A stretch of 64,000 nt of DNA, taken from assembly GCF_026151205.1 (NCBI RefSeq), contig NC_087079.1, forward strand, positions 18,403,571 to 18,467,570, in the 5' to 3' direction. The notes under the pieces are model-generated. The model ran no database searches and was not told the DNA's origin. It was given only the letters and a program-made list of their open reading frames with translations. The position numbers and the translations under genes are program-made. Shown piece after piece: positions 186 to 63,780 of the stretch. This DNA is from Bolinopsis microptera. Taxonomy: Eukaryota; Ctenophora; Tentaculata; Lobata; Bolinopsidae. Within the stretch, counting starts at the first letter, position 1. Each line of letters opens with the position of its first letter.

Positions 186-189
186 TGGA

Positions 190-10545: not shown

Positions 10546-10584
10546 TTTATTTGCACTTAGCTCCTCCTGTGACCAGGACGCGCG

Positions 10585-43765: not shown

Positions 43766-44073
43766 GGTTCTTTTGCGATAGTCAAAACGCGACAACTAGC
43801 GCTGGATGGCGACAACTAGCGCTGGATGGCGACAATTATCTTACTGGGCCGCGCTCAGCCTGTCATTCCGCCTAATCTCTATCCGGTTGTTTACCAACAT
43901 TAAAGCCTGGGGTCCTCAGGTAACAATTATCGAACATATATATTTTGCGCTGGCCAGCGTTATCCAGCGCTGGATAGCGACAACTAGCGCTGGATGGCGA
44001 CAACTAGCGCTGGATAGCGCTAGTTGTCGCCATCCAGCGCTAGTTGTCGCGTTTTGACTATCGCAAAAGAACC
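43766..44073. repeat. Large hairpin at the left edge of the array
   Basis: Arms ggttcttttgcgatagtcaa + aacgcgacaactagcgctgg (43766-43826) and their complement (44010-44073), with tandem gcgctggatggcgacaacta words. The inner part holds a copy of the 84-bp TIR. It ends exactly where the tandem array begins. Confidence 0.75.
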
Positions 44074-44222
44074 AAATAACGGACTACCTCATAATCATAT
44101 CAGGCTTGGTCAAATTGTTTATGTCCCCAGAATCAATCTCACCAAATCCAATCTGGACAAAAGGTTTTTCAACTTTGTTCTGAGATCTTTGCTCCAGTAA
44201 TTGGTAATGTTGTAGGTTTATA

Positions 44223-45223
44223 ATAACATAAACCCGCCACGCAAAGGGTTTATATAACAGATCATCCCGCGCTAGCGGGATGATCTGATAAACACTTATA
44301 CGAGTGCGCGCAGCGCACGAGTTTTGTGTTAATATGTAATCCCGAAGCGCCAGCTGAGGGATTACATTTATTTAGCCCTGAGCGTGAAGTGTTTATGGAT
44401 TATAATTATCTCCGGCGATTTCGACAAGGGATTTATACTTTAGAAGAGAGTGATAAAATAGTTTTTATTTCGGAATACGGGTCTGATTTTAGTAATATTT
44501 TCATTTCTATTTGTGATGGTGATAACAAGTGATACGATAACGTACTAACAGTCGTTGAACAGGAATTTGGTCAAAGTCATTGAAGTCACGAGCAAATCTG
44601 GATGACTGAAGCCAAGAATTAAATTTGTTTAGAGCCCAGTTGTTGACTTTAACTGTACTGTCCGGAACACGATTGGAAAGCAGTTCATCAATCTGAATGT
44701 CAATCCGATCTGTCATAGTGGAGCAATAGCTTGAACGTTAGCAGGAACAAGAGCTGGAAGGAGAGCAAGCAAAACAATACTATTTTTAGGGCACGGACAA
44801 GGGTAGCTGGCTAGTCGCCAACTTCTCACGCCACGCGTTGGAGAAATTCCAAGAATTAGCTGCTTTGGCAACGTTCCCAGGAATTTGCGTGTAAAAGAAG
44901 TGGACGGTTACGATGTTTCATATCACGTGGTGCGCTTTCGTGTCACGTGGTATAGACTCGGCGTATGCTATTGGTGGCACGTGGTACGCACGTGACGCGC
45001 CCACGTGATCGCGCGTCTAACTGTTCTACTATTATCGAGTTCTAATCAGCAGTATCATTGATTATTGTAAGTCGGAGAATTGAATGATAAACATCAGTTA
45101 CGACTAAAAAGCGGGCCGGGTTTATATAAATTTCCGGGGCGGGATGATATCACCTTGAGATGTTTATCTAACAGCGGGCCGGGCTGAGTGATAATATGAT
45201 CCCGCGTCGAAATCCCGGAAATA
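44223..45223. mobile_element. 1.0-kb insertion in the first array unit
   Basis: Compared with all other units, sequence is inserted within gtaggtttataacctacc. TTTATA flanks both sides (44217-44222 and 45224-45229). Inside are a perfect hairpin gatcatcccgcgctagcggg..., GC-rich ends with gggtttatataa on both sides, and two open frames: 44326-44532 plus strand, unassigned, and 44507-44716 minus strand, Crypton-like. The precise empty site in six sister units makes this a clean mobile insertion. Confidence 0.75.
44507..44716 (-). pseudogene. Crypton/DUF3504-like N-terminal fragment
   Basis: Contains DELLSNRVPDSTVKVNNWAL then NKFNSWLQSSRFARDFNDFD. A Ser/Asn-Thr-x-x-A/V-x-x-W-x-x-x-x-F-x-x-W-L pattern is typical of the N-terminal region of Crypton-type tyrosine recombinases and of host genes derived from them. 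Catalytic residues of the recombinase are not present, so it is at most a fragment. Confidence 0.4.
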
Positions 45224-45586
45224 TTTATAACCTACCAAAACTCGTCGACGGTCTTGTCGTAGTATTTGGAACAAATATTTTACGAGTATCACCTGTCAAA
45301 TCCAATGTACTAAATAAAAGAATTTGTAATCAAAATAATTGGAGCAACATTTAAATAAGAACCATGTCAGCTGTAAGTGTAAGTGTAAGTACAACTACAA
45401 TTTCAGTATAAATGAAATTATAAAAATAAAAGCGATCCTAAAACCGTCAGTAAAATAGAAATATTTGCTTCGCATCAGTTTGAAAACGATACATGAACTA
45501 ATAGTCATACTGCCACCATATTAAATATTCGATCCCAGCCACACCAAATGATTCAAATAACGACTAAAAACACCACAAATAATACA

Positions 45587-45592
45587 TTTATT
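45587..45592 (-). terminator. AATAAA poly(A) signal after membrane-protein exon copy 1
   Basis: tttatt on the plus strand, about 40 bases past the stop codon. The same signal follows copies 2-6. Copy 7 has CATAAA (61049-61054). Confidence 0.65.
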
Positions 45593-45631
45593 CTTGCGGA
45601 TGAAGGGTGCGGGCGAACATGGCACATGCAC

Positions 45632-45978
45632 TCATATACTCCCAGGAGTCCCCCGAGGTTTAGTATAAAGCGGTGTTTTAAGTCTAGTAGGGGTCACTGT
45701 CACTGACGCCGGCCTGAACGGGGAACCTATCTTAACTGGAGTAGTTAACATTGAGTTCATAGTTAGGGGCGAGTCCCACTGAGACGAAGTGGATTTGAGA
45801 CGTCTGTAGCTGGCGGTGGTTAGGAAGACGATCCCAATGACGATTAGAAGGACGAGGAGTCCCAGGACGACAGTGGGGAGGAGAGTGCTGATAAGTTCGG
45901 AAAACTCCAGTTTAATGGGAGGTGGAGTTAGGTCGGGTTCTGAGGGTGTTATCAGTACTTCGTACACTTCCTTCTGAC
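45632..45978 (-). CDS. Terminal exon of membrane protein, copy 1
   Basis: Begins after ctctgttccaacag with two bases completing a Gly, then QKEVYEVLITPSEPDLTPPP. A membrane span TLLPTVVLGLLVLLIVIGIV (~residues 30-55) follows, then YRRLKST and a Ser/Thr/Pro-rich tail ending TKPRGTPGSI. The predicted topology is type I with a ~60-residue cytoplasmic tail. Encodes the same 115 residues as the other six copies. Unlike copy 7, no upstream exons lie in the ~550 bp to its right before the plus-strand gene begins. 46020-46560 holds a partly duplicated caacatattattcagaacat block. Confidence 0.75.
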
Positions 45979-47122
45979 CTGTTGGAACAGAGTTAGAGAC
46001 TAACATACTGAAGTTATTAGTTTTAGGATTTTACCGATTAATTTGATGAAAGGTGCGAGGAAAAACCTTTCTAACCTTTTAATTGATATTCAGGCAACAT
46101 ATTATTCAGAACATGCTAGATTGAACAGTTTAAATGTTATCAACGCATTTAAATCTGATATTAAACACAATCTTAGCCAATAGCACACTGAATAGACCAG
46201 TTGTTAAAAACGCTCTTTTCAAACATTATACATGAAGTTATACGCAATAAGACTGAACACAGGATTGAGCACATCTCAAAAAATCGTTTAGCCGTACTTA
46301 ACTTATTTGATAACCTTGAGCAACATATTATTCAGAACATGCTAGATTGAACAGTTTAAATGTTATCAATCTGTGAATTTTAAATCTGTGAAATTTTGAA
46401 CAAATTTTTGAAAAATTTCGTGCTTCAAAAATTAATTTTGGTACTAAAAGTTGTGTCTGACTAAGCTCATTACGATCCTGTAAGAATTATTTCTAAATAT
46501 TCAATATTTTAGGAGTCCCACATATAACAGCTCGACGTTATCGTGCTACACGGTGAATTGTCATTATTCACACTTAGAGGCAACTTTTGGTAGGTACCAA
46601 ATTTATCGAAAATCAGAGACAACAAATTCTGTGCCAGCTCATTCATGGCGCTTATTACATAGCAGTGCCGTAGGATGAAAAGTTTGAAAATTGGTTAGAA
46701 ATTTTCAGAAAATGTGTTATTGGACTGCCGATCTGGGGAGCAACCTAGGGCCCTCTATATATTCATGCCCATTGTAGGCTGCTACCCCGATCCCCGAGAC
46801 TTCGTCTTACTTTCGTCTGGTTTCCACTCTCTCTTCATACCAAGTTACTAGCTAGGTAACAAGGTAATCGAGGAGACAGTTTTCAACGTAACAACGATTT
46901 CAGCCGGTTCGGACAAATCTTTGTTCTACCAACTGAACAACAAATCAGTGCACTGCCATCTGTACGCGTCCTCACACACTGTTCTTAAACCAGAGTTAGC
47001 TTTATACCAACATAGTTCACGAAATATTTACTTGTATGTACCCCTAATCATCGAATTACCAGCCAATTTCACGCTATTACAACTCCCTGCAACTCCACTG
47101 CAACTCCAAGCTCTTAATTACG

Positions 47123-47360
47123 CCTTATATGGATGTGTAATGAGCTGTGCAAATATCACGTGCTAGAAGCAGCTCTTAATTGCGCCTTATATGGTGCGTA
47201 ATCGGGTCTGCATGATAGCTCAATGTCACGCGCTATACATCCAACCAGTAAACGCGCTCAATCGATATCTCGTGACTGTCACGTGACAGCTATCCAAGGA
47301 AATTCTCTATATGGCGCCTCCGGTGTAAACTAGGAAAGAGCTAGTTTGAGCCTTAAATAG
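47123..47360 (+). promoter_or_regulatory. Putative regulatory block (CArG and E-box motifs), copy 1
   Basis: Contains two perfect CArG boxes CCTTATATGG (47123-47132, 47185-47194) and two CACGTG E-boxes (47157-47162, 47280-47285). The second E-box sits inside ctgtcacgtgacag. ctctatatggcgcc and a ccttaaatagg follow. The block recurs in every unit upstream of the PLAT exon. Metazoan SRF and bHLH factors bind such sites; a promoter or enhancer role is inference. Confidence 0.35.
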
Positions 47361-47503
47361 GCGGACACCGCTAATATTTATTAACTTCTACCATCACCCA
47401 AGCAGGTGGCGGTGGAGCTGAAAGTTAGCCTGTGTGAGATCACTATTCCTGCGATATCAGACAAGAGCACGCTTCACACATTCTAGCGAGCCTCCCTTTA
47501 CAG

Positions 47504-47906
47504 GAGGATTCTCATGGAATTGAAGTAAAGAAGTACTTATACTTTACGTGTAACAGATGGTTAGTCAGATCTGAAGACGACGGGGAGATCGTCCGGGAGC
47601 TGATCGCTACGGATGACAACGGAGTGCCTATAAGCTCTGCAGAAGGTGGGCCTCTATTTGAACTGTGTGGGGTTCAGAGCTGTTGTACGGAACAATGTTG
47701 ATTACACTTCAGGTTTAATAACCTGCACTATCAACAATGTTGATAACACAAGCGATAGCGCCCTATCTGATGTCTCTTCTTCCCAGTTTCAGATCACTAG
47801 GCCTCTAACCAGACGAAGTTTTCGTTACAAAAAACCGGAAATCGTTATCTCTTTAACTTTTGACAAAAGGTATTTCAACTTTGTTCTGAGATCTTTGCTC
47901 CAGTAA
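47504..47906 (+). pseudogene. PLAT-protein 3' exons, array copy 1 (deleted)
   Basis: PLAT exon 47504-47645 (GIEVKKYLYFTCNRWLVRSE, DDGEIVRELIATDDNG) and microexon 47678-47712 with one extra codon. The next exon, from 47787, is fused by a ~200-bp deletion to the end of the following microexon, ending GACAAAAG|gt. It differs from other copies by several residue changes (H for Y, E-V for K-E, V for A, D for E). Probably not functional. Confidence 0.6.
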
Positions 47907-48313
47907 TTAGTAATGTTGTAGGTTTATAACCTACCAAGACTCGTCGACGGTCTTGTCGTAGTATTTCGGAACAAATATTTTACGAGTATCACCTGTTAAA
48001 TCCAATGTACTAAATAAAAGAATTTGTAATCAAAATAATTGTAGCAACATTTAAATAAGAACCATGTCAGCTGTAAGTACAATTTCAGTATAAATGAAAT
48101 TATAAAAATAAAAGCAATCCTAAAACCTTCAGTAAAATTGAAATACTTGCTTCGCATCAGTTTGAAAACGATACATGAACTAATATTCACACTGCCACCA
48201 TATTCAATATTCGATCCCAGCCACACCAAATGATTCAAATAACGACTAAAAACACCACAAATAATACATTTATTCTTGCGGATGAAGGGTGCGGGCGAAC
48301 ATGGCACATGCAC

Positions 48314-48660
48314 TCATATACTCCCAGGAGTCCCCCGAGGTTTAGTATAAAGCGGTGTTTTAAGTCTAGTAGGGGTCACTGTCACTGACGCCGGCCTGAA
48401 CGGGGAACCTATCTTAACTGGAGTAGTTAACATTGAGTTCATAGTTAGGGGCGAGTCCCACTGAGACGAAGTGGATTTGAGACGTCTGTAGCTGGCGGTG
48501 GTTAGGAAGACGATCCCAATGACGATTAGAAGGACGAGGAGTCCCAGGACGACAGTGGGGAGGAGAGTGCTGATAAGTTCGGAAAACTCCAGTTTAATGG
48601 GAGGTGGAGTTAGGTCGGGTTCTGAGGGTGTTATCAGTACTTCGTACACTTCCTTCTGAC
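48314..48660 (-). CDS. Terminal exon of membrane protein, copy 2
   Basis: Identical protein to copy 1. An acceptor (ctctgttccatcag) precedes it and an AATAAA follows on the minus strand. The flank to its right keeps ~90 bp (to ccagcagtttctag, 48774) that also follow copy 7, and then jumps into the plus-strand block. The upstream exons were therefore removed by a deletion at that point. Confidence 0.75.
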
Positions 48661-49658
48661 CTGATGGAACAGAGTTAGAGACTAACATACTGAAGTTATT
48701 AGTTTTAACATTTTACCGATTAATTTGATGAAAGGTGCGAGGAAAGAGTTTGGTGTTTTTACCAGCAGTTTCTAGAATCAGAGACAACAAATTCTGTGCC
48801 AGCTCATGGCGCTTATTACATATAATAGCAGTGGCGTAGGACTGATGAAAAGTTTGAAAATTAGAAATTTTCAGAAAATGTGTTATTGGACTGCCGATCT
48901 GGGGAGCAACCTAGGGCCCTCTATATATTCATGCCCATTGTAGGCTGCTACCCCGATCCCCGAGACTTCGTCTTACTTTCGTCTGGTTTCCACTCTCTCT
49001 TCATACCAAGTTACTAGCTAGGTAACAAGGTAATCGAGGAGACAGTTTTCAACGTAACAACGATTTCAGCCGGTTCGGACAAATCTTTGTTCTACCAACT
49101 GAACAACAAATCAGTGCACTGCCATCTGTACGCGTCCTCACACACTGTTCTTAAACCAGAGTTAGCTTTATACCAACATAGTTCACGAAATATTTACTTG
49201 TATGTACCCCTAATCATCGAATTACCACCCAATTTCACGCTATTACAACTCCCTGCAACTCCACTGCTCTTAATTACGCCTTATATGGATGTGTAATGAG
49301 CTGTGCAAATATCACGTGCTAGAAGCAGCTCTTAATTGCGCCTTATATGGTGCGTAATCGGGTCTGCATGATAGCTCAATGTCACGCGCTATACATCCAA
49401 CCAGTAAACGCGCTCAATCGATATCTCGTGACTGTCACGTGACAGCTATCCAAGGAAATTCTCTATATGGCGCCTCCAGTGTAAACTAGGAAAGAGCTAG
49501 TTTGAGCCTTAAATATGCGGGATATTTAATATTTATTAACTTCTACCATCACCCAAGCAGGTGGCGGTGGAGCTGAAAGTTGGCCTGTGTGAGATCGGTA
49601 TTCCTGCGATATCAGACAAGAGCACGCTTCACACACTCTGGCGAGCCTCCCTTTACAG

Positions 49659-50160
49659 GAGGACTCTTATGGAATTAAAGAAAAGAAGTACTTATACTTT
49701 ACGTGTAACAGATGGTTAACCAGATCTGAAGACGACGGGGAGATCGTCCGGGAGCAGATCGCTACGGATGAAAACGGAGTGCCTATAAGCTCTGCAGAAG
49801 GTGGGCCTCTATTTGAACTGCGTGGGGTTCAGAGTTGTACGGAACAATGTTGATTACACTTCAGGTTTAATAACCTGCACTATTAACAATGTTGATAACA
49901 CAAGCGATAGCGCCCTATCTGATGTCTCTTCTTCCCAGTTTCAGATCACTAGGCCTCTAACCAGACGAGGTTTTCGTTACAAAAAACCGGAAATCGTTAT
50001 CTCTTTAACTTTTGGTTTCTGGGCTCGTCTAAATTTCTTCGAAGTATAAAATTATCTGCATTGATCTGAAACGAATTATTAAAATAACGGACTACCTCAT
50101 ATCAGGCTTGGTCAAATTGTTTATGTCCCCAGAATCAATCTCACCAATCTGGACAAAAGC
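49659..50160 (+). pseudogene. PLAT-protein 3' exons, array copy 2 (donor broken)
   Basis: PLAT exon 49659-49800 (Thr for Ala after CNRWL; Gln for Leu in VRELIA), microexon 49833-49864, exon 49939-50014 with a changed donor, microexon 50133-50159. The last donor reads AAAAG|CT instead of AAAAG|GT, so normal splicing to the stop exon is lost. Confidence 0.6.
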
Positions 50161-50340
50161 TTTTTCAACTTTGTTCTGAGATCTTTGCTCCAGTAATTGG
50201 TAATGTTGTAGGTTTATAACCTACCAAGACTCGTCGACGGTCTTGTCGTAGTATTCGGAACAAATATTTTACGAGTATCACCTGTTAAATCCAATGTACT
50301 AAATAAAAGAATTTGTAATCAAAATAATTGTAGCAACATT

Positions 50341-50397
50341 TAAATAAGAACCATGTCAGCTGTTAGTAGTACTAACAGCTGACATGGTTCTTATTTA
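50341..50397. repeat. Perfect 57-bp palindrome, array copy 3
   Basis: 27-base arms (taaataagaaccatgtcagc + tgttagt) around a 3-base loop. Other units have only the left arm. It lies between the two convergent poly(A) regions. An identical palindrome is at 52976-53032. Confidence 0.9.
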
Positions 50398-50643
50398 CTA
50401 ATAGTACAATTTCAGTATTTTAAATGAAATTATAAAAATAAAAGCAATCCTAAAACCGTCAGTTAAATTGAAATACTTGCTTCGCATCAGTTTGAAAACG
50501 ATACATGAACTAATAGTCACACTGCCACCATGTTCAATATTCGATCCCAGCCACACCAAATGATTCAAATAACGACTAAAAACACCACAAATAATACATT
50601 TATTCTTGCGGATGAAGGGTGCGGGCGAACATGGCACATGCAC

Positions 50644-50990
50644 TCATATACTCCCAGGAGTCCCCCGAGGTTTAGTATAAAGCGGTGTTTTAAGTCTAGT
50701 AGGGGTCACTGTCACTGACGCCGGCCTGAACGGGGAACCTATCTTAACTGGAGTAGTTAACATTGAGTTCATAGTTAGGGGCGAGTCCCACTGAGACGAA
50801 GTGGATTTGAGACGTCTGTAGCTGGCGGTGGTTAGGAAGACGATCCCAATGACGATTAGAAGGACGAGGAGTCCCAGGACGACAGTGGGGAGGAGAGTGC
50901 TGATAAGTTCGGAAAACTCCAGTTTGATGGGAGGTGGAGTTAGGTCGGGTTCTGAGGGTGTTATCAGTACTTCGTACACTTCCTTCTGAC
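50644..50990 (-). CDS. Terminal exon of membrane protein, copy 3
   Basis: Identical protein. It carries ATC where copies 1-2 have ATT (Ile, silent), as do copies 4-7. The minus-strand 3' UTR runs towards the palindrome at 50341-50397. Confidence 0.75.
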
Positions 50991-52268
50991 CTGATGGAAC
51001 AGAGTTAGAGACTAACATACTGAAGTTATTAGTTTTAACATTTTACCGATTATTTGTAATACAATATTTGTGATATTATGTTAGTAATTAAAACTAATTA
51101 AAAGAATTCAAACTTGCAAATTTCAATTTGCAGTTTCTGAATGTTATCAATCTGTGGATTTTTAATCTGTGAAATTTTGAACAAATTTTTGAAAAATTTC
51201 GTGCTTCAAAAATTAATTTTGGTACTAAAAGTTGCGTCTGACTAAGCTCATTACGATCCTGTAAGAATTATGTCAAAATATTCAATATGTTAGGAGTCCC
51301 ACATACAGCTCGACGTTATCGTGCTACACGGTGAATTTTCATTATTCACACTTAGAGGCAACTTTTGGTACCAAATTTATCGAAAATCAGAGACAACAAA
51401 TTCTGTGCCAGCTCATGGCGCTTATTACATATAATAGCAGTGGCGTAGCGACTGATGAAAAGTTTGAAAATTAGAAATTTTCAGAAAATGTGTTATTGGA
51501 CTGCCGATTTGGGGAGCAACCTAGGGCCCTCTATATATTCATGCCCATTGTAGGCTGCTACCCCGATCCCCGAGACTTCGTCTTACTTTCGTCTGGTTTC
51601 CACTCTCTCTTCATACCAAGTTACTAGCTAGGTAACAAGGTAATCGAGGAGACAGTTTTCGACGTAACAACGATTTCAGCCGGTTCGGACAAATCTTTGT
51701 TCTACCAACTGAACAACAAATCAGTGCACTGCCATCTGTACGCGTCCTCACACACTGTTCTTAAACCAGAGTTAGCTTTATACCAACATAGTTCACGAAA
51801 TATTTACTTGTATGTACCCCTAATCATCGAATTACCACCCAATTTCACGCTATTACAACTCCCTGCAACTCCACTGCTCTTAATTACGCCTTATATGGAT
51901 GTGTAATGAGCTGTGCAAATATCACGTGCTAGAAGCAGCTCTTAATTGCGCCTTATATGGTGCGTAATCGGGTCTGCATGATAGCTCAATGTCACGCGCT
52001 ATACATCCAACCAGTAAACGCGCTCAATCGATATCTCGTGACTGTCACGTGACAGCTATCCAAGGAAATTCTCTATATGGCGCTTCCGGTGTAAACTAGG
52101 AAAGAGCTAGTTTGAGCCTTAAATATGCGGGATATTTAATATTTATTAACTTCTACCATCACCCAAGCAGGTGGCGGTGGAGCTGAAAGTTGGCCTGTGT
52201 GAGATCGCTATTCCTGCGATATCAGACAAGAGCACGCTTCACACATTCTGGCGAGCCTCCCTTTACAG

Positions 52269-52831
52269 GAGGACTCTTATGGAATTAAAGAAAAGGAGTA
52301 CTTATACTTTACGTGTAACAGATGGTTAGCCAGATCTGAAGACGACGGGGAGATCGTCCGGGAGCTGATCGCTACGGATGAAAACGGAGTGCCTATAAGC
52401 TCTGCAGAAGGTGGGCCTCTATTTGAACTGTGTGGGGTTCAGAGTTATACAGAACAATGTTGATTGCACTTCAGGTTTAATAACCTGCACTATTAACAAT
52501 GTTGATGACACAATTGCGATAGCGCCCTATCTGATGTCTCTTCTTCCCAGTTTCAGATCACTAGGCCTCTAACCAGACGAAGTTTTCGTTACAAAAAACC
52601 GGAAATCGTTATCTCTTTAACTTTTGAAGTAAGGCCCTGGCCAGTAAGGGTTTCTGGGCTCGTCTAAATTTCTTCGAAGTATAAAATTATCTGCATTGAT
52701 CTGAAACGAATTATTAAAATAACGGACTACCTCATATAAGGCTTGGTCACATTGTTTATGTCCCCAGAATCAATCTCACCAATCTGGACAAAAGGTTTTT
52801 CAACTTTGTTCTGAGATCTTTGCTCCAGTAA
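52269..52831 (+). CDS. PLAT-protein 3' exons, array copy 3
   Basis: Exons 52269-52410, 52443-52474, 52551-52628, 52768-52794, then a stop at 52829-52831 at the start of the next exon; all GT/AG with compatible phases. The first reads DSYGIKEKEYLYF then CNRWLARSEDDGEIVREL, the C-terminal strands of a PLAT/LH2 domain as in LOXHD1-like proteins (lipid or membrane-associated beta-sandwich). The rest read ELYRTMLIALQ, FQITRPLTRRSFRYKK..., and NQSHQSGQK. Poly(A) signal about 110 bases after the stop. No N-terminal half of the domain is found in the unit. Confidence 0.6.
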
Positions 52832-52975
52832 TTGGTAATGTTGTAGGTTTATAACCTACCAAGACTCGTCGACGGTCTTGTCGTAGTATTTGGAACAAAT
52901 ATTTTACGAGTATCACCTGTTAAATCCAATGTACTAAATAAAAGAATTTGTAATCAAAATAATTGTAGCAACATT

Positions 52976-53032
52976 TAAATAAGAACCATGTCAGCTGTTA
53001 GTAGTACTAACAGCTGACATGGTTCTTATTTA
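52976..53032. repeat. Perfect 57-bp palindrome, array copy 4
   Basis: Same palindrome as 50341-50397, showing the two units share one origin or were converted. Confidence 0.9.
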
Positions 53033-53278
53033 CTAATAGTACAATTTCAGTATTTTAAATGAAATTATAAAAATAAAAGCAATCCTAAAACCGTCAGTTA
53101 AATTGAAATACTTGCTTCGCATCAGTTTGAAAACGATACATGAACTAATAGTCACACTGCCACCATGTTCAATATTCGATCCCAGCCACACCAAATGATT
53201 CAAATAACGACTAAAAACACCACAAATAATACATTTATTCTTGCGGATGAAGGGTGCGGGCGAACATGGCACATGCAC

Positions 53279-53625
53279 TCATATACTCCCAGGAGTCCCC
53301 CGAGGTTTAGTATAAAGCGGTGTTTTAAGTCTAGTAGGGGTCACTGTCACTGACGCCGGCCTGAACGGGGAACCTATCTTAACTGGAGTAGTTAACATTG
53401 AGTTCATAGTTAGGGGCGAGTCCCACTGAGACGAAGTGGATTTGAGACGTCTGTAGCTGGCGGTGGTTAGGAAGACGATCCCAATGACGATTAGAAGGAC
53501 GAGGAGTCCCAGGACGACAGTGGGGAGGAGAGTGCTGATAAGTTCGGAAAACTCCAGTTTGATGGGAGGTGGAGTTAGGTCGGGTTCTGAGGGTGTTATC
53601 AGTACTTCGTACACTTCCTTCTGAC
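53279..53625 (-). CDS. Terminal exon of membrane protein, copy 4
   Basis: Identical protein and nucleotide sequence to copy 3. Its right flank (53690-53960) continues into an AT-rich block and then the plus-strand unit, with no trace of the upstream exons. Confidence 0.75.
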
Positions 53626-54902
53626 CTGATGGAACAGAGTTAGAGACTAACATACTGAAGTTATTAGTTTTAACATTTTACCGATTATTTGTAATACAAT
53701 ATTTGTGATATTATGTTAGTAATTAAAACTAATTAAAAGAATTCAAACTTGCAAATTTCAATTTGCAGTTTCTGAATGTTATCAATCTGTGGATTTTTAA
53801 TCTGTGAAATTTTGAACAAATTTTTGAAAAATTTCGTGCTTCAAAAATTAATTTTGGTACTAAAAGTTGCGTCTGACTAAGCTCATTACGATCCTGTAAG
53901 AATTATGTCAAAATATTCAATATGTTAGGAGTCCCACATACAGCTCGACGTTATCGTGCTACACGGTGAATTTTCATTATTCACACTTAGAGGCAACTTT
54001 TGGTACCAAATTTATCGAAAATCAGAGACAACAAATTCTGTGCCAGCTCATGGCGCTTATTACATATAATAGCAGTGGCGTAGGACTGATGAAAAGTTTG
54101 AAAATTAGAAATTTTCAGAAAATGTGTTATTGGACTGCCGATCTGGGGAGCAACCTAGGGCCCTCTATATATTCATGCCCATTGTAGGCTGCTACCCCGA
54201 TCCCCGAGACTTCGTCTTACTTTCGTCTGGTTTCCACTCTCTCTTCATACCAAGTTACTAGCTAGGTAACAAGGTAATCGAGGAGACAGTTTTCAACGTA
54301 ACAACGATTTCAGCCGGTTCGGACAAATCTTTGTTCTACCAACTGAACAACAAATCAGTGCACTGCCATCTGTACGCGTCCTCACACACTGTTCTTAAAC
54401 CAGAGTTAGCTTTATACCAACATAGTTCACGAAATATTTACTTGTATGTACCCCTAATCATCGAATTACCACCCAATTTCACGCTATTACAACTCCCTGC
54501 AACTCCACTGCTCTTAATTACGCCTTATATGGATGTGTAATGAGCTGTGCAAATATCACGTGCTAGAAGCAGCTCTTAATTGCGCCTTATATGGTGCGTA
54601 ATCGGGTCTGCATGATAGCTCAATGTCACGCGCTATACATCCAACCAGTAAACGCGCTCAATCGATATCTCGTGACTGTCACGTGACAGCTATCCAAGGA
54701 AATTCTCTATATGGCGCCTCCGGTGTAAACTAGGAAAGAGCTAGTTTGAGCCTTAAATAGGCGGGATATTTAATATTTATTAACTTCTACCATCACCCAA
54801 GCAGGTGGCGGTGGAGCTGAAAGTTGGCCTGTGTGAGATCGCTATTCCTGCGATATCAGACAAGAGCACGCTTCACACATTCTGGCGAGCCTCCCTTTAC
54901 AG

Positions 54903-55464
54903 GAGGACTCTTATGGAATTAAAGAAAAGAAGTACTTATACTTTACGTGTAACAGATGGTTAGCCAGATCTGAAGACGACGGGGAGATCGTCCGGGAGCT
55001 GATCGCTACGGATGAAAACGGAGTGCCTATAAGCTCTGCAGAAGGTGGGCCTCTATTTGAACTGTGTGGGGTTCAGAGTTATACAGAACAATGTTGATTG
55101 CACTTCAGGTTTAATAACCTGCACTATTAACAATGTTGATGACACAATGCGATAGCGCCCTATCTGATGTCTCTTCTTCCCAGTTTCAGATCACTAGGCC
55201 TCTAACCAGACGAAGTTTTCGTTACAAAAAACCGGAAATCGTTATCTCTTTAACTTTTGAAGTAAGGCCCTGGCCAGTAAGGGTTTCTGGGCTCGTCTAA
55301 ATTTCTTCGAAGTATAAAATTATCTGCATTGATCTGAAACGAATTATTAAAATAACGGACTACCTCATATAAGGCTTGGTCACATTGTTTATGTCCCCAG
55401 AATCAATCTCACCAATCTGGACAAAAGGTTTTTCAACTTTGTTCTGAGATCTTTGCTCCAGTAA
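54903..55464 (+). CDS. PLAT-protein 3' exons, array copy 4
   Basis: PLAT exon 54903-55044 with GIKEKKYLYF and CNRWLARSEDDGEIVREL, then the same small exons as copy 3, stop at 55462-55464. All splice sites are intact. Differs from copy 3 by Lys for Glu in the first exon. Confidence 0.6.
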
Positions 55465-55882
55465 TTGGTAATGTTGTAGGTTTATAACCTACCAAGACTC
55501 GTCGACGGTCTTGTCGTAGTATTTGGAACAAATATTTTACGAGTATCACCTGTTAAATCCAATGTACTAAATAAAAGAATTTGTAATCAAAATAATTGTA
55601 GCAACATTTAAATAAGAACCATGTCAGCTGTAAGTACAACTACAATTTCAGTATAAATGAAATTATAAAAATAAAAGCAATCCTAAAACCGTCAGTAAAA
55701 TTGAAATATTTGCTTCGCATCACTTTGAAAACGATACATGAACTAATAGTCACACTGCCACCATATTCAATGTTCGATCCCAGCCACAGTCCACACCAAA
55801 TGATTCAAATAACGACTAAAACACCACAAATAATACATTTATTCTTGCGGATGAAGGGTGCGGGCGAACATGGCACATGCAC

Positions 55883-56229
55883 TCATATACTCCCAGGAGT
55901 CCCCCGAGGTTTAGTATAAAGCGGTGTTTTAAGTCTAGTAGGGGTCACTGTCACTGACGCCGGCCTGAACGGGGAACCTATCTTAACTGGAGTAGTTAAC
56001 ATTGAGTTCATAGTTAGGGGCGAGTCCCACTGAGACGAAGTGGATTTGAGACGTCTGTAGCTGGCGGTGGTTAGGAAGACGATCCCAATGACGATTAGAA
56101 GGACGAGGAGTCCCAGGACGACAGTGGGGAGGAGAGTGCTGATAAGTTCGGAAAACTCCAGTTTGATGGGAGGTGGAGTTAGGTCGGGTTCTGAGGGTGT
56201 TATCAGTACTTCGTACACTTCCTTCTGAC
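55883..56229 (-). CDS. Terminal exon of membrane protein, copy 5
   Basis: Identical protein. Neither this unit nor copy 6 has the palindrome; the UTR region reads gtcagctgtaagtacaacta instead. Confidence 0.75.
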
Positions 56230-57516
56230 CTGATGGAACAGAGTTAGAGACTAACATACTGAAGTTATTAGTTTTAACATTTTACCGATTATTTGTAATA
56301 CAATATTTGTGATATTATGTTAGTAATTAAAACTAATTAAAAGAATTCAAACTTGCAAATTTCAATTTGCAGTTTCTGAATGTTATCAATCTGTGGATTT
56401 TTAATCTGTGAAATTTTGAACAAATTTTTGAAAAATTTCGTGCTTCAAAAATTAATTTTGGTACTAAAAGTTGCGTCTGACTAAGCTCATTACGATCCTG
56501 TAAGAATTATGTCAAAATATTCAATATGTTAGGAGTCCCACATACAGCTCGACGTTATCGTGCTACACGGTGAATTTTCATTATTCACACTTAGAGGCAA
56601 CTTTTGGTACCAAATTTATCGAAAATCAGAGACAACAAATTCTGTGCCAGCTCATGGCGCTTATTACATATAATAGCAGTGGCGTAGGACTGATGAAAAG
56701 TTTGAAAATTAGAAATTTTCAGAAAATGTGTTATTGGACTGCCGATCTGGGGAGCAACCTAGGGCCCTCTATATATTCATGCCCATTGTAGGCTGCTACC
56801 CCGATCCCCGAGACTTCGTCTTACTTTCGTCTGGTTTCCACTCTCTCTTCATACCAAGTTACTAGCTAGGTAACAAGGTAATCGAGGAGACAGTTTTCAA
56901 CGTAACAACGATTTCAGCCGGTTCGGACAAATCTTTGTTCTACCAACTGAACAACAAATCAGTGCACTGCCATCTGTACGCGTCCTCACACACTGTTCTT
57001 AAACCAGAGTTAGCTTTATACCAACATAGTTCACGAAATATTTACTTGTATGTACCCCTAATCATCGAATTACCACCCAATTTCACGCTATTACAACTCC
57101 CTGCAACTCCACTGCAACTCCAAGCTCTTAATTACGCCTTATATGGATGTGTAATGAGCTGTGCAAATATCACGTGCTAGAAGCAGCTCTTAATTGCGCC
57201 TTATATGGTGCGTAATCGGGTCTGCATGATAGCTCAATGTCACGCGCTATACATCCAACCAGTAAACGCGCTCAATCGATATCTCGTGACTGTCACGTGA
57301 CAGCTATCCAAGGAAATTCTCTATATGGCGCCTCCGGTGTAAACTAGGAAAGAGCTAGTTTGAGCCTTAAATAGGCGGGATATTTAATATTTATTAACTT
57401 CTACCATCACCCAAGCAGGTGGCGGTGGAGCTGAAAGTTGGCCTGTGTGAGATCGCTATTCCTGCGATATCAGACAAGAGCACGCTTCACACATTCTGGC
57501 GAGCCTCCCTTTACAG

Positions 57517-58079
57517 GAGGACTCTTATGGAATTAAAGAAAAGGAGTACTTATACTTTACGTGTAACAGATGGTTAGCCAGATCTGAAGACGACGGGGAG
57601 ATCGTCCGGGAGCTGATCGCTACGGATGAAAACGGAGTGCCTATAAGCTCTGCAGAAGGTGGGCCTCTATTTGAACTGTGTGGGGTTCAGAGTTATACAG
57701 AACAATGTTGATTGCACTTCAGGTTTAATAACCTGCACTATTAACAATGTTGATGACACAATTGCGATAGCGCCCTATCTGATGTCTCTTCTTCCCAGTT
57801 TCAGATCACTAGGCCTCTAACCAGACGAAGTTTTCGTTACAAAAAACCGGAAATCGTTATCTCTTTAACTTTTGAAGTAAGGCCCTGGCCAGTAAGGGTT
57901 TCTGGGCTCGTCTAAATTTCTTCGAAGTATAAAATTATCTGCATTGATCTGAAACGAATTATTAAAATAACGGACTACCTCATATAAGGCTTGGTCACAT
58001 TGTTTATGTCCCCAGAATCAATCTCACCAATCTGGACAAAAGGTTTTTCAACTTTGTTCTGAGATCTTTGCTCCAGTAA
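57517..58079 (+). CDS. PLAT-protein 3' exons, array copy 5
   Basis: PLAT exon 57517-57658 (Glu variant KEKEYLYF as in copy 3), the same downstream exons, stop at 58077-58079. Splice sites intact. Confidence 0.6.
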
Positions 58080-58497
58080 TTGGTAATGTTGTAGGTTTAT
58101 AACCTACCAAGACTCGTCGACGGTCTTGTCGTAGTATTTGGAACAAATATTTTACGAGTATCACCTGTTAAATCCAATGTACTAAATAAAAGAATTTGTA
58201 ATCAAAATAATTGTAGCAACATTTAAATAAGAACCATGTCAGCTGTAAGTACAACTACAATTTCAGTATAAATGAAATTATAAAAATAAAAGCAATCCTA
58301 AAACCGTCAGTAAAATTGAAATATTTGCTTCGCATCACTTTGAAAACGATACATGAACTAATAGTCACACTGCCACCATATTCAATGTTCGATCCCAGCC
58401 ACAGTCCACACCAAATGATTCAAATAACGACTAAAACACCACAAATAATACATTTATTCTTGCGGATGAAGGGTGCGGGCGAACATGGCACATGCAC

Positions 58498-58844
58498 TCA
58501 TATACTCCCAGGAGTCCCCCGAGGTTTAGTATAAAGCGGTGTTTTAAGTCTAGTAGGGGTCACTGTCACTGACGCCGGCCTGAACGGGGAACCTATCTTA
58601 ACTGGAGTAGTTAACATTGAGTTCATGGTTAGGGGCGAGTCCCACTGAGACGAAGTGGATTTGAGACGTCTGTAGCTGGCGGTGGTAAGGAAGACGATCC
58701 CAATGACGATTAGAAGGACGAGGAGTCCCAGGACGACAGTGGGGAGGAGAGTGCTGATAAGTTCGGAAAACTCCAGTTTGATGGGAGGTGGAGTTAGGTC
58801 GGGTTCTGAGGGTGTTATCAGTACTTCGTACACTTCCTTCTGAC
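58498..58844 (-). CDS. Terminal exon of membrane protein, copy 6
   Basis: Identical protein but with two private silent changes (ACC for ACT at Thr; CTT for CTA at Leu). Acceptor and AATAAA are intact. Confidence 0.75.
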
Positions 58845-60130
58845 CTGATGGAACAGAGTTAGAGACTAACATACTGAAGTTATTAGTTTTAACATTTTAC
58901 CGATTATTTGTAATACAATATTTGTGATATTATGTTAGTAATTAAAACTAATTAAAAGAATTCAAACTTGCAAATTTCAATTTGCAGTTTCTGAATGTTA
59001 TCAATCTGTGGATTTTTAATCTGTGAAATTTTGAACAAATTTTTGAAAAATTTCGTGCTTCAAAAATTAATTTTGGTACTAAAAGTTGCGTCTGACTAAG
59101 CTCATTACGATCCTGTAAGAATTATGTCAAAATATTCAATATGTTAGGAGTCCCACATACAGCTCGACGTTATCGTGCTACACGGTGAATTTTCATTATT
59201 CACACTTAGAGGCAACTTTTGGTACCAAATTTATCGAAAATCAGAGACAACAAATTCTGTGCCAGCTCATGGCGCTTATTACATATAATAGCAGTGGCGT
59301 AGGACTGATGAAAAGTTTGAAAATTAGAAATTTTCAGAAAATGTGTTATTGGACTGCCGATCTGGGGAGCAACCTAGGGCCCTCTATATATTCATGCCCA
59401 TTGTAGGCTGCTACCCCGATCCCCGAGACTTCGTCTTACTTTCGTCTGGTTTCCACTCTCTCTTCATACCAAGTTACTAGCTAGGTAACAAGGTAATCGA
59501 GGAGACAGTTTTCAACGTAACAACGATTTCAGCCGGTTCGGACAAATCTTTATTCTACCAACTGAACAACAAATCAGTGCACTGCCATCTGTACGCGTCC
59601 TCACACACTGTTCTTAAACCAGAGTTAGCTTTATACCAACATAGTTCACGAAATATTTACTTGTATGTACCCCTAATCATCGAATTACCACCCAATTTCA
59701 CGCTATTACAACTCCCTGCAACTCCACTGCAACTCCAAGCTCTTAATTACGCCTTATATGGATGTGTAATGAGCTGTGCAAATATCACGTGCTAGAAGCA
59801 GCTCTTAATTGCGCCTTATATGGTGCGTAATCGGGTCTGCATGATAGCTCAATGTCACGCGCTATACATCCAACCAGTAAACGCGCTCAATCGATATCTC
59901 GTGACTGTCACGTGACAGCTATCCAAGGAAATTCTCTATATGGCGCCTCCGGTGTAAACTAGGAAAGAGCTAGTTTGAGCCTTAAATAGGCGGGATATTT
60001 AATATTATTAACTTCTACCATCACCCAAGCAGGTGGCGGTGGAGCTGAAAGTTGGCCTGTGTGAGATCGCTATTCCTGCGATATCAGACAAGAGCACGCT
60101 TCACACATTCTGGCGAGCCTCCCTTTACAG

Positions 60131-60682
60131 GAGGACTCTTATGGAATTAAAGAAAAGAAGTACTTATACTTTACGTGTAACAGATGGTTAGCCAGATCTG
60201 AAGACGACGGGGAGATCGTCCGGGAGCTGATCGCTACGGATGAAAACGGAGTGCCTATAAGCTCTGCAGAAGGTGGGCCTCTATTTGAACTGTGTGGGGT
60301 TCAGAGTTGTACGGAACAATGTTGATTACACTTCAGGTTTAATAACCTGCACTATTAACAATGTTGATAACACAAGCGATAGCGCCCTATCTGATGTCTC
60401 TTCTTCCCAGTTTCAGATCACTGCCTCTAACCAGACGAAGTTTTCGTTACAAAAAACCGGAAATCGTTATCTCTTTAAAGTAAGGCCCTGGCCAGTAAGG
60501 GTTTCTGGGCTCGTCTAAATTTCTTCGAAGTATAAAATTATCTGCATTGATCTGAAACGAATTATTAAAATAACGGACTACCTCATATAAGGCTTGGTCA
60601 AATTGTTTATGTCCCCAGAATCAATCTCACCAATCTGGACAAAAGGTTTTTCAACTTTGTTCTGAGATCTTTGCTCCAGTAA
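60131..60682 (+). CDS. PLAT-protein 3' exons, array copy 6 (best reading frame)
   Basis: Exons 60131-60272, 60305-60336, 60411-60479, 60619-60645, stop 60680-60682. Phases join correctly: 142 nt ends with one base, the 32-nt microexon adds two and ends in frame. The reading is CNRWLARSEDDGEIVREL, ATDENGVPISSAE, ELYGTMLITLQ, FQITASNQTKFSLQKTG, NRYLFK and NQSHQSGQK. The third exon is 69 nt here but 78 nt in copies 3-5. A 2-base and a 7-base indel there keep the overall frame but change most residues. This copy looks the more protein-like. The PLAT assignment is firm for the first exon; the tail is unassigned. Confidence 0.65.
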
Positions 60683-60787
60683 TTGGTAATGTTGTAGGTT
60701 TATAACCTACCAAGACTCGTCGACGGTCTTGTCGTAGTATTTGGAACAAATATTTTACGAGTATCACCTGTTAAATCCAATGTACTA

Positions 60788-60793
60788 AATAAA
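60788..60793 (+). terminator. AATAAA poly(A) signal of the PLAT-protein gene, copy 6
   Basis: AATAAA within ctaaataaaag, 106 bases after the stop codon. It is repeated at the same place in every unit. It faces the minus-strand poly(A) signal about 260 bases away. Confidence 0.65.
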
Positions 60794-61048
60794 AGAATTT
60801 GTAATCAAAATAATTGTAGCAACATTTAAATAAGAACCATGTCAGCTGTAAGTACAACTACAATTTCAGTATAAATGAAATTATAAAAATAAAAGCAATC
60901 CTAAAACTGTCAGTTAAATTGAAATACTTGCTTCGCATCAGTTTGAAAACGATACATGAACTAATAGTCACACTGCCACCATATTCAATATTCGATCCCA
61001 GCCACACCAAATGATTCAAATAACGACTAAAACACCACAAATAATACA

Positions 61049-61054
61049 TTTATG
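61049..61054 (-). terminator. CATAAA variant poly(A) signal, membrane-protein copy 7
   Basis: The plus strand reads tttatg here where copies 1-6 read tttatt, so the minus-strand signal is CATAAA instead of AATAAA. Confidence 0.5.
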
Positions 61055-61093
61055 CTTGCGGATGAAGGGTGCGGGCGAACATGGCACATGCAC

Positions 61094-62305
61094 TCATATA
61101 CTCCCAGGAGTCCCCCGGGGTTTTGTATAAAGCGGTGTTTTAAGTCTAGTAGGGGTCACTGTCACTGACGCCGGCCTGAACGGGGAACCTATCTTAACTG
61201 GAGTAGTTAACATTGAGTTCATAGTTAGGGGCGAGTCCCACTGAGACGAAGTGGATTTGAGACGTCTGTAGCTGGCGGTGGTTAGGAAGACGATCCCAAT
61301 GACGATTAGAAGGACGAGGAGTCCCAGGACGACAGTGGGGAGGAGAGTGCTGATAAGTTCGGAAAACTCCAGTTTGATGGGAGGTGGAGTTAGGTCGGGT
61401 TCTGAGGGTGTTATCAGTACTTCGTACACTTCCTTCTGACCTGATGGAAGAGAGTTAGAGACTACTGAAGTTATTAGTTTTAGGATTTTACCGATTAATT
61501 TGATGAAAGGTGCGAGGCAAGAGTTTGGTGTTTTTACCAGCAGTTTCTAGCGAAACAAAACAAAGCAGCTAACCCAAGACCCAAGTACTAACCAGAAGTA
61601 GGACAGAGAAAAGTGAGAGAATGGACAGCCTGGGTGTTCCAGTTGAGCAGGGATAGGTGGAAGTGAGACGAGGTTTTAATAATGTTCAGATCACCGCCAG
61701 CTCTGTCGTCTAACGTCACCTGAACAAGGTTCCAGCTTTGAGCTAGTTTGTAATTTTATAAATAAATATAAAATTATATAAATAATAGACTGACCCGACG
61801 GTCACTGCATTGCCTGGGGAGTGGCGTCATGTTTCTCTATGCTAATGTTTTGGAGAATTGGCTACCTAGAAAATATCGGATTGTGCGAAGCAAAACTTTA
61901 AAAGGCAAGACAGAGTGGTTCTCTACCCCCTAGTCTATAATATTTACCTGAACAAGCGAAAATTCTCCCTCCACAAGGAAGATATCAGTAGTAGGACTCT
62001 CTGAAGAGAGAGAAGTCTTCTCTCCAGATAACTTAAAACCTGTAGAAAGTTATGAAACTTGCAGTTAGTGGTACGTTAAAGTGTCTGTATCTGTTATTAG
62101 TACGGTCTACCAAGATAATCTCTAGTCACGATGTGTGATGTCATAACACGTGTGTCATACTCGAAGTCTACTCGAAAAAGTAATTGTTTCTGGAGGTTAA
62201 AAATGTAAGGGCAAGTTTACTCACGTGATACGAATGGTATCTGGATGGAGCTGGATACAGCACCCTTTACTTTTACAGTCACCAGCGGAGATACGGTCGA
62301 TACAG
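61094..62305 (-). CDS. Single-pass membrane protein, last four exons (probable parent copy)
   Basis: Minus-strand exons 62225-62305, 61948-62039, 61593-61719 and 61094-61440, each with good acceptor and donor sites and matching phases (1, 0, 1). They read VTVKVKGAVSSSIQIPFVS, RFKLSGEKTSLSSES, IFLVEGEFSLVQ, VTLDDRAGGDLNIIKTSSHF and HSLTFLCPTSG. The terminal exon shared with the array follows: juxtamembrane QKEVYEVLITPSEP, a ~24-residue membrane span, and a Ser/Pro/Thr-rich tail. The fragment is extracellular or lumenal beta-rich, then TM, then a short tail. The order of beta strands, one C-terminal TM and an SP/TP-rich tail recalls the nucleoporin NUP210/gp210 family, but similarity is weak. 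The 5' exons lie beyond what I can find (62330-64000). It has two private silent changes relative to the other copies. Confidence 0.7.
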
Positions 62306-63104
62306 CTGCAAAAAATAATCGGTTAGATCTGCTGAATAAGTGGTTTAATTGGTGGTTTTGTAACTAATATGATACTTAAGTTTCTCACTTTCTGTCCCTT
62401 CTCTCTTTCTCCTTTCTGTCCCTCCCTCACAGACTTACCTTACATTCCGTAATTTTTAATTAAGTTTGAGTGTGTTCTTTCACTCTCACTGGTAATATTT
62501 CATAATTTTGTTTGAGGTATGTACATTTTACTTCGGTCACTTGAAATTGCTTTTTTTCGGAGGCTTCGGTGCTGGTTTCGACTGAGCGGGTTCATACTTT
62601 TGCAACTTCTTAACTGCCAAAATTGTTACACTAGTTGGCCATTGCATTGGTAGACACAATCTTAGCAAAATACTGCTAAATTGCAGTATTAAATTGCAGT
62701 ACCTATTAAATTACAGTATTACATTTTCATATTAAATACGCAAACGATAGCCATCTTGTATGCCATGCTCCCGGAAATTATTAGACTGAAAATAGTCCAA
62801 ATTTCAAAGAATATCTTTATAATCATTAATGTAATATCTTAATCTCGGTATCGTGTTATTGCAACGGTCATCATGTATAATGTTCTATTCAGTATTCTCA
62901 ACAGTCGATATATGTAAACTATAAGCATTTGAATAAGATGTGGGTAATAATAGGGAGGCGGTGCAAGCCTTTCAAACAGATTAACAGATCAAGTTAAATT
63001 ATATTACGTGTCATATCAGCTTTAAATTGATATTACAACCCTGTCCATTAAGAAGGTGGTAGCCACGTGACCACTTTCATCCATTCAGCTAATATTCATT
63101 ATTC

Positions 63105-63780
63105 AGCCAACATATTATTCAGAACATGCTAGATTGAACAGTTTAAATGTTATCAATCTGTGAATTTTTAATCTGTGAAATTTTGAACAAATTTTTGAAA
63201 AATTTCGTGCTAAAAGTTGCGTCTGACTAAGCTCATTACGATCCTGTAAGAATTATTTCAAAATATTCAATATGTTAGGAGTCCCACATACAGCTCGACG
63301 TTATCGTGCTACACGGTGAATTTTCATTATTCACACTTAGAGGCATTTTTTGGTACCAAATTTATCGATCAAAATCAGAGACAACAAATTCTGTGCCAGC
63401 TCATGGCGCTTATTACATAGCAGTGCCGTAGGATGAAAAGTTTGAAAATTAGTTACAAATTTTCAGAAAATGTGTTATTGGACTGCCGATCTGGGGAGCA
63501 ACCTAGGGCCCTCTATATATTCATGCCCATTGTAGGCTGCATCCCCGATCCCCGAGACTTCGTCTTACTTTCGTCTGGTTTCCACTCTCTCTTCATACCA
63601 AGTTACTAGCTAGGTAACAAGGTAATCGAGGAGACAGTTTTCAACGTAACAACGATTTCAGCCGGTTCGGACAAATCTTTATTCTAACCATTTGAACAAC
63701 AAATCAGTGCACTTCCATCTGTACGCGCCCTCACACACTGTTCTAAAACCAAAGTTAACTTTATAACCAACATAGTTTAT
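63105..63780. repeat. Degraded partial array unit (right edge)
   Basis: Matches the 5' part of the unit (catattattcagaacatgct ... tctgccgatctggggagc ... aggtaatcgaggagacag), then accumulates indels and loses similarity near 63780. 62310-63100 between the gene exons and this repeat holds AT-rich DNA without a supported exon. 63780-64000 shows nothing recognisable. Confidence 0.8.

Follow-up and report, generated by a model that had tools for sequence, protein, structure and literature searches.

Structures in which inserted DNA lies at a duplication junction are already known from bacteria and plants. In the bacterial Dup-IS-Dup structure (Ngan et al. 2024, PMC11708052), an insertion sequence (IS) sits where the two copies of a large tandem duplication join, and its authors propose that the IS entered the break first and that the duplication was resolved afterwards. 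For H. pylori, PMC2869330 mentions long target-site duplications. The first step of tandem duplication is still an open question, because unequal exchange requires a pre-existing repeat. If one module recurrently marks independent duplication junctions, this first step could be studied by comparing filled with empty sites.

Here, a stretch of 64,000 nucleotides from Bolinopsis microptera (the window), whose end is also the end of contig C8, was analyzed. It contains an array of a local gene-end segment, X, and a dispersed module, E, and the comparison with other loci of the assembly suggests that the insert E may arrive together with duplications.

Layout of the Array in the Window

The repeated segments span 44074 to 63777, in agreement with the extent given by the first-pass annotation, and form a tandem segmental array with a period of about 2.6 kb, the units being head-to-tail, in one orientation and of high identity. 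The annotated number of six to seven units was confirmed by the exons in the window sequence, with seven copies of the minus-strand membrane-protein exon and six of the plus-strand PLAT-like exon, and E is represented by seven copies of its block 1 and six of its block 2. The spacings of consecutive block-1 36-mers were 2166, 2610, 2634, 2604, 2615, and 4129 bases. The middle units, which had been called nearly identical, differed in 5 of 2441 and 13 of 2394 aligned bases in two pairs (0.2-0.5%), and unit 1 diverged in 26 of 1475 aligned bases.

Both ends of the array are partial. At the left end, a fragment of X (44074..44223, plus strand) shares 90.7-91.3% with five further copies, such as 50082-50219. 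Between it and the other units lies an inserted repeat (about 44217-45230), which matches positions 1967-2181 and 2178-2737 of the C11 locus L023 at 99%. The part of X that holds the membrane exon appears first at 45224..46063 (94.7-96.2% to the six other copies). At the right end, both block 2 and the PLAT-like exon are missing past the seventh block 1; the right-most partial unit (63108..63777, plus strand) comprises the left part of E alone, followed by other sequence up to the contig end.

Gene-End Segments of the Units

X consists, in this assembly, of the 3' ends of two local genes that meet tail to tail. As the first-pass annotation had proposed, the units carry gene 3' ends in this order and no whole genes. 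The last exon of the membrane-protein gene is located on the minus strand at 45632..46025 (an ORF of 132 aa), 48314..48712, 50644..51042, 53279..53677 (reference copy), 55883..56281, 58498..58896, and 61094..61482. The PLAT-like exon is located on the plus strand at 47538..47703 (with stop), 49693..49855, 52303..52466, 54937..55100 (reference copy, with a weak PLAT resemblance), 57551..57714, and 60165..60327. The poly-A signals that had been noted on both strands were also found; in unit 3, the plus strand has ATTAAA at 52713 followed by AATAAA at 52937 and 53072, and the minus-strand AATAAA reads as TTTATT at 53234. Rightward of the seventh membrane exon, the sequence is absent from the other window units, and to the right of this last copy, 62225..62305 (minus strand), with splice-like borders and an open frame as judged by eye, is a candidate for an upstream exon of the gene.

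The protein names given earlier are tentative. The term PLAT-type is backed by a short motif, but Pfam gave no family at E<=1, and the best PDB match of the exon, Rab6-interacting protein 1 (3cwz_B; E=0.082, 23 residues), is weak. The term membrane protein is backed by one transmembrane-like stretch recognized by eye, but not by a Pfam family match. No parent gene of the PLAT-like exon was found among the C8 matches, because the matches covering the exon also cover E leftward.

Module E Is Dispersed and Lacks Fixed Ends

Module E is about 0.9 kb long; its inner part is shared, its outer ends vary, and the part of the reference copy common to other chromosomes is at 53957..54936 (plus strand). 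Using a 36-mer, E was found in 38 places on C2, C7, C8, C9, C11, C12, and C13, whereas the reversed-pattern control gave 0. The description of the unit as a gene-end cassette is therefore correct as to the gene ends but incomplete, more than one third of each unit being dispersed E; since E is dispersed and lies beside pieces of other genes elsewhere, the cassette is the local cargo of something wider. The genes beside E at other loci have family matches to SMC_N (E=3.2e-19), PhyH (2.3e-31), EF-hand (5.2e-9), DHHC (3.8e-13), and zf-C2H2 (8.6e-10), and at C13:4.01 Mb a frame of 959 aa next to E gave no Pfam family at E<=0.1. On C11, SMC coding exons run from the left into the first copy, followed twice by E and a truncated 3' end. 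The earlier suggestion that the array lies beside working genes thus receives support from C11, where the exons continue into the first copy, but none from the window.

Two blocks were delimited within E: block 1 at 54088..54335 (other window copies start at 46674, 48844, 51454, 56692, 59307, and 63432) and block 2 at 54641..54730 (others start at 47241, 49397, 52007, 57255, and 59870), the latter holding CACGTG and TATA-like words as seen by eye. Across 12 loci, variable columns amounted to 19/245 in block 1 and 7/90 in block 2 versus 53/258 in the part between (Fisher 4e-5 and 0.005, the blocks having been picked after the conservation profile was seen). The middle of E differs by 3-16% per 40-base window between copies. 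In oriented coordinates of five loci, the left end falls at about 372-641 and the right end at about 1490-1859.

Several identities were considered for E and rejected. A cut-and-paste DNA transposon of the Ac/hAT type does not fit, as fixed ends are missing and the ends vary among the compared loci; Ac carries terminal inverted repeats. In an LTR retrotransposon or solo LTR, TG/CA ends would be expected, and those of E at four loci differ from each other and are not TG/CA. A non-LTR retrotransposon or SINE is contradicted by the variation of both left and right ends, with no constant 3' end. E as coding sequence was discarded because indels between loci shift its plus-strand frame, and Pfam gave none above cut-off.

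Direct Duplications around Module E

Direct duplications contain E, or have it at their junction, at 12 of the 13 loci read. Four loci with a single E (L022, L029, L030, and L035) show it precisely between two long copies of the local DNA in direct orientation (X-E-X) with sharp edges, at the junction and not within a duplicated unit; L035 was chosen as a test once the X-E-X idea was set down. The length of X at these loci is 0.46-4 kb, and the two X copies differ by 13/459, 25/1972, 97/3567, and 32/1721 substitutions (1.3-2.8%). This divergence is at or below that between E copies, which fits older E lineages copied into new sites. At L032 (C8:16.42 Mb), no flanking repeat was found around E within the 9 kb read.

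An automatic bracketing rule (a pair of >=400 bp with >=85% identity and a gap of 300-2500 bp) scored 4 of the 13 E loci as bracketed; the others were six array loci, the window included, C12 12.89 Mb, C13 4.01 Mb, and L032. The bracketed C9 locus is a weak case, lying in a tandem exon array with 36% of the locus bracketed. Under the strict rule, four of the seven single-E loci were bracketed versus about 2.4% of positions in the control, which is small (66.8 kb) and consisted of two random 10-kb stretches, 43.8 kb of the window, and 3 kb of L047. Of the random stretches, L052 holds a true 2.7-kb tandem pair without E, joined by a hexamer repeat, and the pair in the other (L053) represents two copies of an inverted-end repeat around single-copy DNA. 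Since one of the two random controls contains a tandem pair without E, E is not required for duplication.

Larger arrays were also found. At C7 17.87 Mb, four X-E units (99.6%) are present with no further X after them; C2 has three similar units in the examined part and six E places altogether; and the C11 array is interrupted by a 100-N gap. C11 also contains a duplicated pair of 889-bp period.

A Second Version of the Locus on C8

The compared parts of the window repeat C8:16.47-16.53 Mb almost exactly, and its sampled left part has nearly the same sequence as C8:16.47-16.515 Mb elsewhere in this assembly. An identical stretch of 8,102 bases joins 36450..44551 to C8:16506494-16514595. Between the two versions, the 10,239 aligned bases of left flank differed by 1 substitution and 14 indel events, 3,000 of 3,000 bases were identical to the left of the window, and the right flank differed by 1.4%. 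The window is thus probably a redundant contig, one locus (C8:16.47-16.53 Mb) having been assembled twice.

Between the shared flanks, the other version has four membrane exons, three PLAT-like exons, and five block-1 copies versus seven in the window, but most of its array copies are raw-quality, unpolished sequence. Compared with good units, C8:16516464-16525060 showed 8.4-10.3% substitutions, with fewer transitions than transversions over the five stretches compared (51 and 106 in an example stretch), 124-221 deletion events (97-180 of a single base), and 21-38 insertion events. Old, decaying units were considered for this region and rejected, the pattern being that of raw long-read error and not of age. 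For the same reason, the stops at C8:16520712 and C8:16525536 are poor evidence for a pseudogene. The published pipeline for B. microptera comprised wtdbg2, HiRise, TGS-GapCloser, Purge Haplotigs, and pilon (PMC10232365). The redundant end of scaffold C8, together with unpolished sequence, would mislead the dating of repeat units.

Discussion

We give about an even chance to the reading that the window is an array of X and E in which E came with a duplication of its target, unequal exchange built the array, and the window itself is most likely an assembly duplicate. E would reach a new site jointly with the target duplication, either by insertion with target breaks 0.05-4 kb apart or by capture of an E fragment during the formation of a tandem duplication. 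The long direct repeats would then recombine unequally into arrays such as the seven-unit array of the window, and the gene ends within the units would be by-products. Against this joint arrival, E has no fixed ends, unlike in ordinary transposition, L032 lacks a flanking repeat, the units at C7 17.87 Mb end without a further X, the automatic rule brackets only 4 of 13 E loci, a random control holds a tandem pair without E, and no parent gene emerged for the PLAT-like exon. If true, joint arrival would account for the amplified 3' ends of unrelated genes in this genome, and copies linked to the module may then underlie the truncated genes in its annotation. A stronger version, in which E is a new kind of mobile module that duplicates 0.05-4 kb of target directly, seeds gene-piece arrays, and sets a conserved promoter-like block by truncated ends, appears unlikely to us; it would make E an engine of gene-end arrays, and perhaps of truncated or antisense transcripts, across the comb jelly genome.

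Three other explanations have to be weighed. E may be an ordinary old repeat carried along by chance, the units having been duplicated by slippage or unequal exchange in a duplication-rich genome. We place this on the doubtful side: tandem duplications and minisatellites are common here (the L052 control and the 889-bp-period pair on C11), C7 17.87 Mb is compatible with plain duplication of an X-E unit, and the loci were picked by starting from E, but a repeat carried along would sit within both copies, whereas each of the four single-E loci has two X but a single E, located precisely where the copies join. The bracketing frequency under the strict rule also argues against a chance passenger, with the small control and the weak C9 case to be kept in mind. 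A false X-E-X would also arise if E insertions were heterozygous and the assembler wrote both X haplotypes in series, and the window array would then perhaps be inflated. This appears distinctly improbable. The redundant segment, the raw sequence resembling gap filling, the gap closing and haplotig purging in the published pipeline (PMC10232365), and the 100-N gap on C11 speak for it, and false duplication of haplotypes could produce the appearance of single X-E-X sites because the divergence of the X copies is close to the 1.4% of the right flank. However, the arrays of four (C7), three (C2), and seven (window) similar units cannot derive from two haplotypes, L022, L029, L030, and L035 contain zero N, and their X pairs have at least as many transitions as transversions, although 40 indel events separate the copies of the C12 12.89 Mb pair.

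E might also be a functional multi-copy gene or promoter, namely a structured RNA or a bidirectional promoter, with arrays kept for truncated-gene-end or antisense expression; judged from the sequence, this appears quite unlikely, and it is compatible with joint arrival. It would explain why blocks 1 and 2 are better conserved between loci than the part between, why the predicted fold of block 1 is more stable than that of shuffled sequences (z -2.76 and -2.83 for the two strands), and why truncated SMC copies on C11 begin at an in-frame ATG directly after E. On the other hand, folding of the block 2 region (54600-54840) is ordinary (z -1.0), and E is oriented against the adjacent gene at C12 12.11 Mb. 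The tRNA and Rfam searches gave none at threshold, with 0 Rfam matches at gathering score in the window, and all 16 sub-threshold matches are one hairpin present in two units. E carries no spliced-leader signal. A 14-base word is common to the Hormiphora leader, as given in PMC8527503, and 7 of 7 window cores; it occurs 131 times genome-wide versus 83 for the reversed control, and E copies account for at least 22 of the 100 places listed. A spliced-leader RNA was rejected, as the other leader half occurs only once in the window, with three mismatches, at chance level.

Joint arrival of E and its target duplication can be set beside described systems, as far as the cited accounts go. Like the mobile piece of Dup-IS-Dup (PMC11708052), E lies between two direct copies of host DNA; that system concerns a bacterial IS and a large duplication, whereas E belongs to an animal genome, has no fixed ends, and recurs as one module at four loci or more. 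For bacterial genes, the title of Nobusato et al. 2000 likewise names an insertion accompanied by a long duplication of the target. In the reversed-ends transposition of maize Ac (PMC3744419), a eukaryotic transposon lies at the junction of a tandem direct duplication, but the duplications measure 8 kb to over 5,000 kb with 8-bp target duplications, whereas X measures 0.46-4 kb and E has no fixed ends. Arabidopsis transposed genes (PMC2869330) likewise represent moved host DNA between direct repeats, often of target sequence; there, different genes were moved and the repeats are much shorter, whereas E is one recurring module.

Gene-end array in the window

Head-to-tail units were found at 44074-63777. 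They hold seven copies of a last exon on the minus strand, in which one stretch is transmembrane-like, and six of an exon on the plus strand whose motif weakly resembles PLAT. The unit spacing is approximately 2.6 kb in the middle of the array, with a shorter first interval and a long last one. The two pairs of middle units compared diverged by 0.2% and 0.5%, while the first unit diverges by 1.8%, and poly-A signals are present on both strands between the PLAT-like and membrane-type exons. The tandem array of two convergent gene ends described in the first-pass annotation was thus borne out by the repeated exons, their spacing, the near-identical middle units and the poly-A signals. Its "PLAT-type" exon is indeed repeated, but the assignment to PLAT is weak: Pfam gave no family at E<=1, and PDB a single marginal match. 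The interpretation as a gene-end cassette was partly supported and had to be widened, as the unit consists of the gene ends plus a dispersed module of about 0.9 kb, named E, whose two conserved parts are present in seven (block 1) and six (block 2) copies.

Two units carry a strong hairpin (50339-50402 and 52974-53037), which several microRNA models match weakly, below their gathering scores. Outside the array, a LINE-like element at 36433-38904 has an open frame of 824 aa that includes a reverse transcriptase domain (RVT_1, E=1.3e-29), and minisatellite arrays lie at 10408-12475 and 17340-18437 (periods of 10/20, 43 to 371, and 95 bases).

A second assembled copy of the locus

The window (C8:18403571-18467570) ends with its contig, since C8 stops at base 18,467,570; no telomere-like array was detected in its last 2 kb (0 TTAGGG, 1 CCCTAA). 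In the 264.65-Mb genome, contigs C1-C13 measure 15.2-26.2 Mb and C14 0.2 Mb, hence n = 13; for Bolinopsis microptera, 13 scaffolds and a k-mer size of about 254 Mb have been published (PMC10232365).

Identity is 100% between positions 1-3000 and C8:16470170-16473169 and between positions 38900-44050 and C8:16508944-16514094; the 3,000 bases that precede the window on its left agree exactly with this inner copy as well. One shared block of 8,102 bases is exact. The left flank (34954-45200) showed 1 substitution and 14 indel events, one of them longer than 10 bases, over 10,239 aligned bases, and the right flank (61500-63983) 34 substitutions in 2,476 bases. The base-by-base comparison covered the parts just named; across positions 3001-34953 the offset shifts by 125 bases, so they hold at least one indel. 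The LINE-like element is identical in the other copy from 36450 onward. The redundant scaffold end extends over C8:18400571-18467570 versus C8:16467170-16528429, the compared parts being exact or nearly exact copies.

Between its flanks, the inner version holds five block-1 copies. The stretches compared there differ by 8-10% substitutions, with many single-base deletions and an excess of transversions, unlike the comparisons of good units, where transitions are in excess. Judged by the transversions and deletions, these stretches are raw read sequence, as gap closing would give; the published pipeline included TGS-GapCloser (PMC10232365). With shared flanks and raw inner sequence, the two versions are most likely a single locus that was assembled twice. 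The window is probably the redundant copy, and the true number of units may differ from that in either version.

Distribution and conservation of module E

The E copy at 53957-54936 matched other chromosomes at 82-97% with common edges among the matches scored, whose number is a lower bound (best 40 candidates in each of two comparisons). A 36-mer of E was located at 38 places on seven chromosomes (33 exact, 5 with 1-3 mismatches), 7 of them in the window, and its reversed control at none in the genome. Among the best 40 of 103 candidates scored, a left part of one E subtype recurs on C13 in long arrays whose period is about 4.2 kb. Two such E-bearing arrays, at C13:2.16-2.25 Mb and C13:3.87-3.93 Mb, are mostly 82-88% identical to the query copy and are probably unpolished sequence.

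Over 12 loci, variable columns numbered 19/245 in block 1, 7/90 in block 2 and 53/258 between them (Fisher test, 4e-5 and 0.005), with block limits picked after viewing the conservation profile. Compared with shuffled sequences, block 1 has the better fold on each strand, and the block 2 region does not. Candidate CACGTG, CArG-like and TATA-like words were recognized in E by eye.

Anatomy of E sites

Thirteen E loci were read, a sample outside which other E places lie (e.g., C13 3.87-3.93 Mb). At six of them, E is part of a tandem array (C2, C7 17.87 Mb, C8, C11, C13 2.10 Mb and C13 2.15 Mb, the two C13 sites possibly forming a single cluster). At four others, E lies exactly between two direct copies of a local segment, X: C7 17.895 Mb (X of 466/460 bp), C12 12.11 Mb (1989/2081 bp), C12 12.89 Mb (3681/4071 bp) and C13 2.81 Mb (2081/2916 bp), the longer pairs aligning in two or more pieces. 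C13 2.81 Mb was a test site, fetched after the X-E-X idea had been noted. On C9, E sits within an 899-bp tandem exon array, and some 50 bp recur to either side of it; at C13 4.01 Mb, a direct repeat of about 490 bp brackets E and a neighbouring frame; at C8 16.42 Mb, no flanking repeat was found around E in the 9 kb read.

An automatic rule (pair >=400 bp, >=85% alike, gap 300-2500 bp) bracketed only 4 of the 13 loci, as it misses arrays and alignments that are split. Applied to 66.8 kb of control sequence, it bracketed about 2.4% of positions, from two pairs, one being a genuine tandem duplication without E. This duplication, in a random 10-kb stretch (L052, 599-6495), consists of 2.7-kb copies that are 99.6% alike, with about 0.5 kb of a six-base repeat joining them. 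The other pair, in a second such stretch (L053), is formed by two copies of a 3.8-kb repeat (250-4085 and 5204-8981), which has inverted ends in runs of G/C, around single-copy DNA.

Gene pieces also accompany E elsewhere: an SMC 3' end on C11 (SMC_N; presumably SMC3), a PhyH gene on C13, an EF-hand 3' end on C12 (which we take to be calumenin-like), an MFS-like exon at a second C12 site (E=0.014, below the cut-off), DHHC and a short membrane protein on C2, and C2H2 zinc fingers on C7. On C11, coding sequence enters the first copy from its left side, and the duplicated segment begins within an exon; after E, two further copies start at the same point, at an in-frame ATG. A 100-N gap cuts off the third copy, so this array may be longer than assembled. 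A repeat of about 0.8-1 kb is inserted both in the C11 array (L023 1967-2737) and in the first unit of the window (44217-45230), 99% alike.

Proposed origin of the E-linked duplications

Each of the four single sites has a single E, placed where its two X copies meet. A repeat that was merely duplicated along with its surroundings would be expected inside both X, so E probably arrived together with the duplication. X1-X2 divergence (1.3-2.8%) is at or below E-E divergence (3-16% per 40-base window, middle of E), so E lineages seem to predate the separate duplications. E could have been inserted at widely spaced breaks, or it could be a fragment caught during repair of the duplication; its ends vary on both sides, which fits capture better than the action of a transposase on fixed ends. 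Once X-E-X had formed, unequal exchange between X copies would give X-E-X-E-X, as in the window. At C7 17.87 Mb there are four X-E units but, contrary to the prediction, no last X after them. This duplication mechanism is one that we infer, and the assembly contains redundant and unpolished sequence.

In the ctenophore literature covered (titles and abstract openings, with few subscription papers among them), nothing was found on E-type duplications. For bacteria, an "insertion with long target duplication" was reportedly proposed in 2000. Like E, a bacterial insertion sequence was seen separating the two copies of a large, newly formed duplication, and its entry into a break was offered as the explanation (PMC11708052); maize Ac, which produces tandem direct duplications, likewise lies at their junction (PMC3744419); and transposed genes of Arabidopsis, like E, often have direct repeats on their flanks (PMC2869330).
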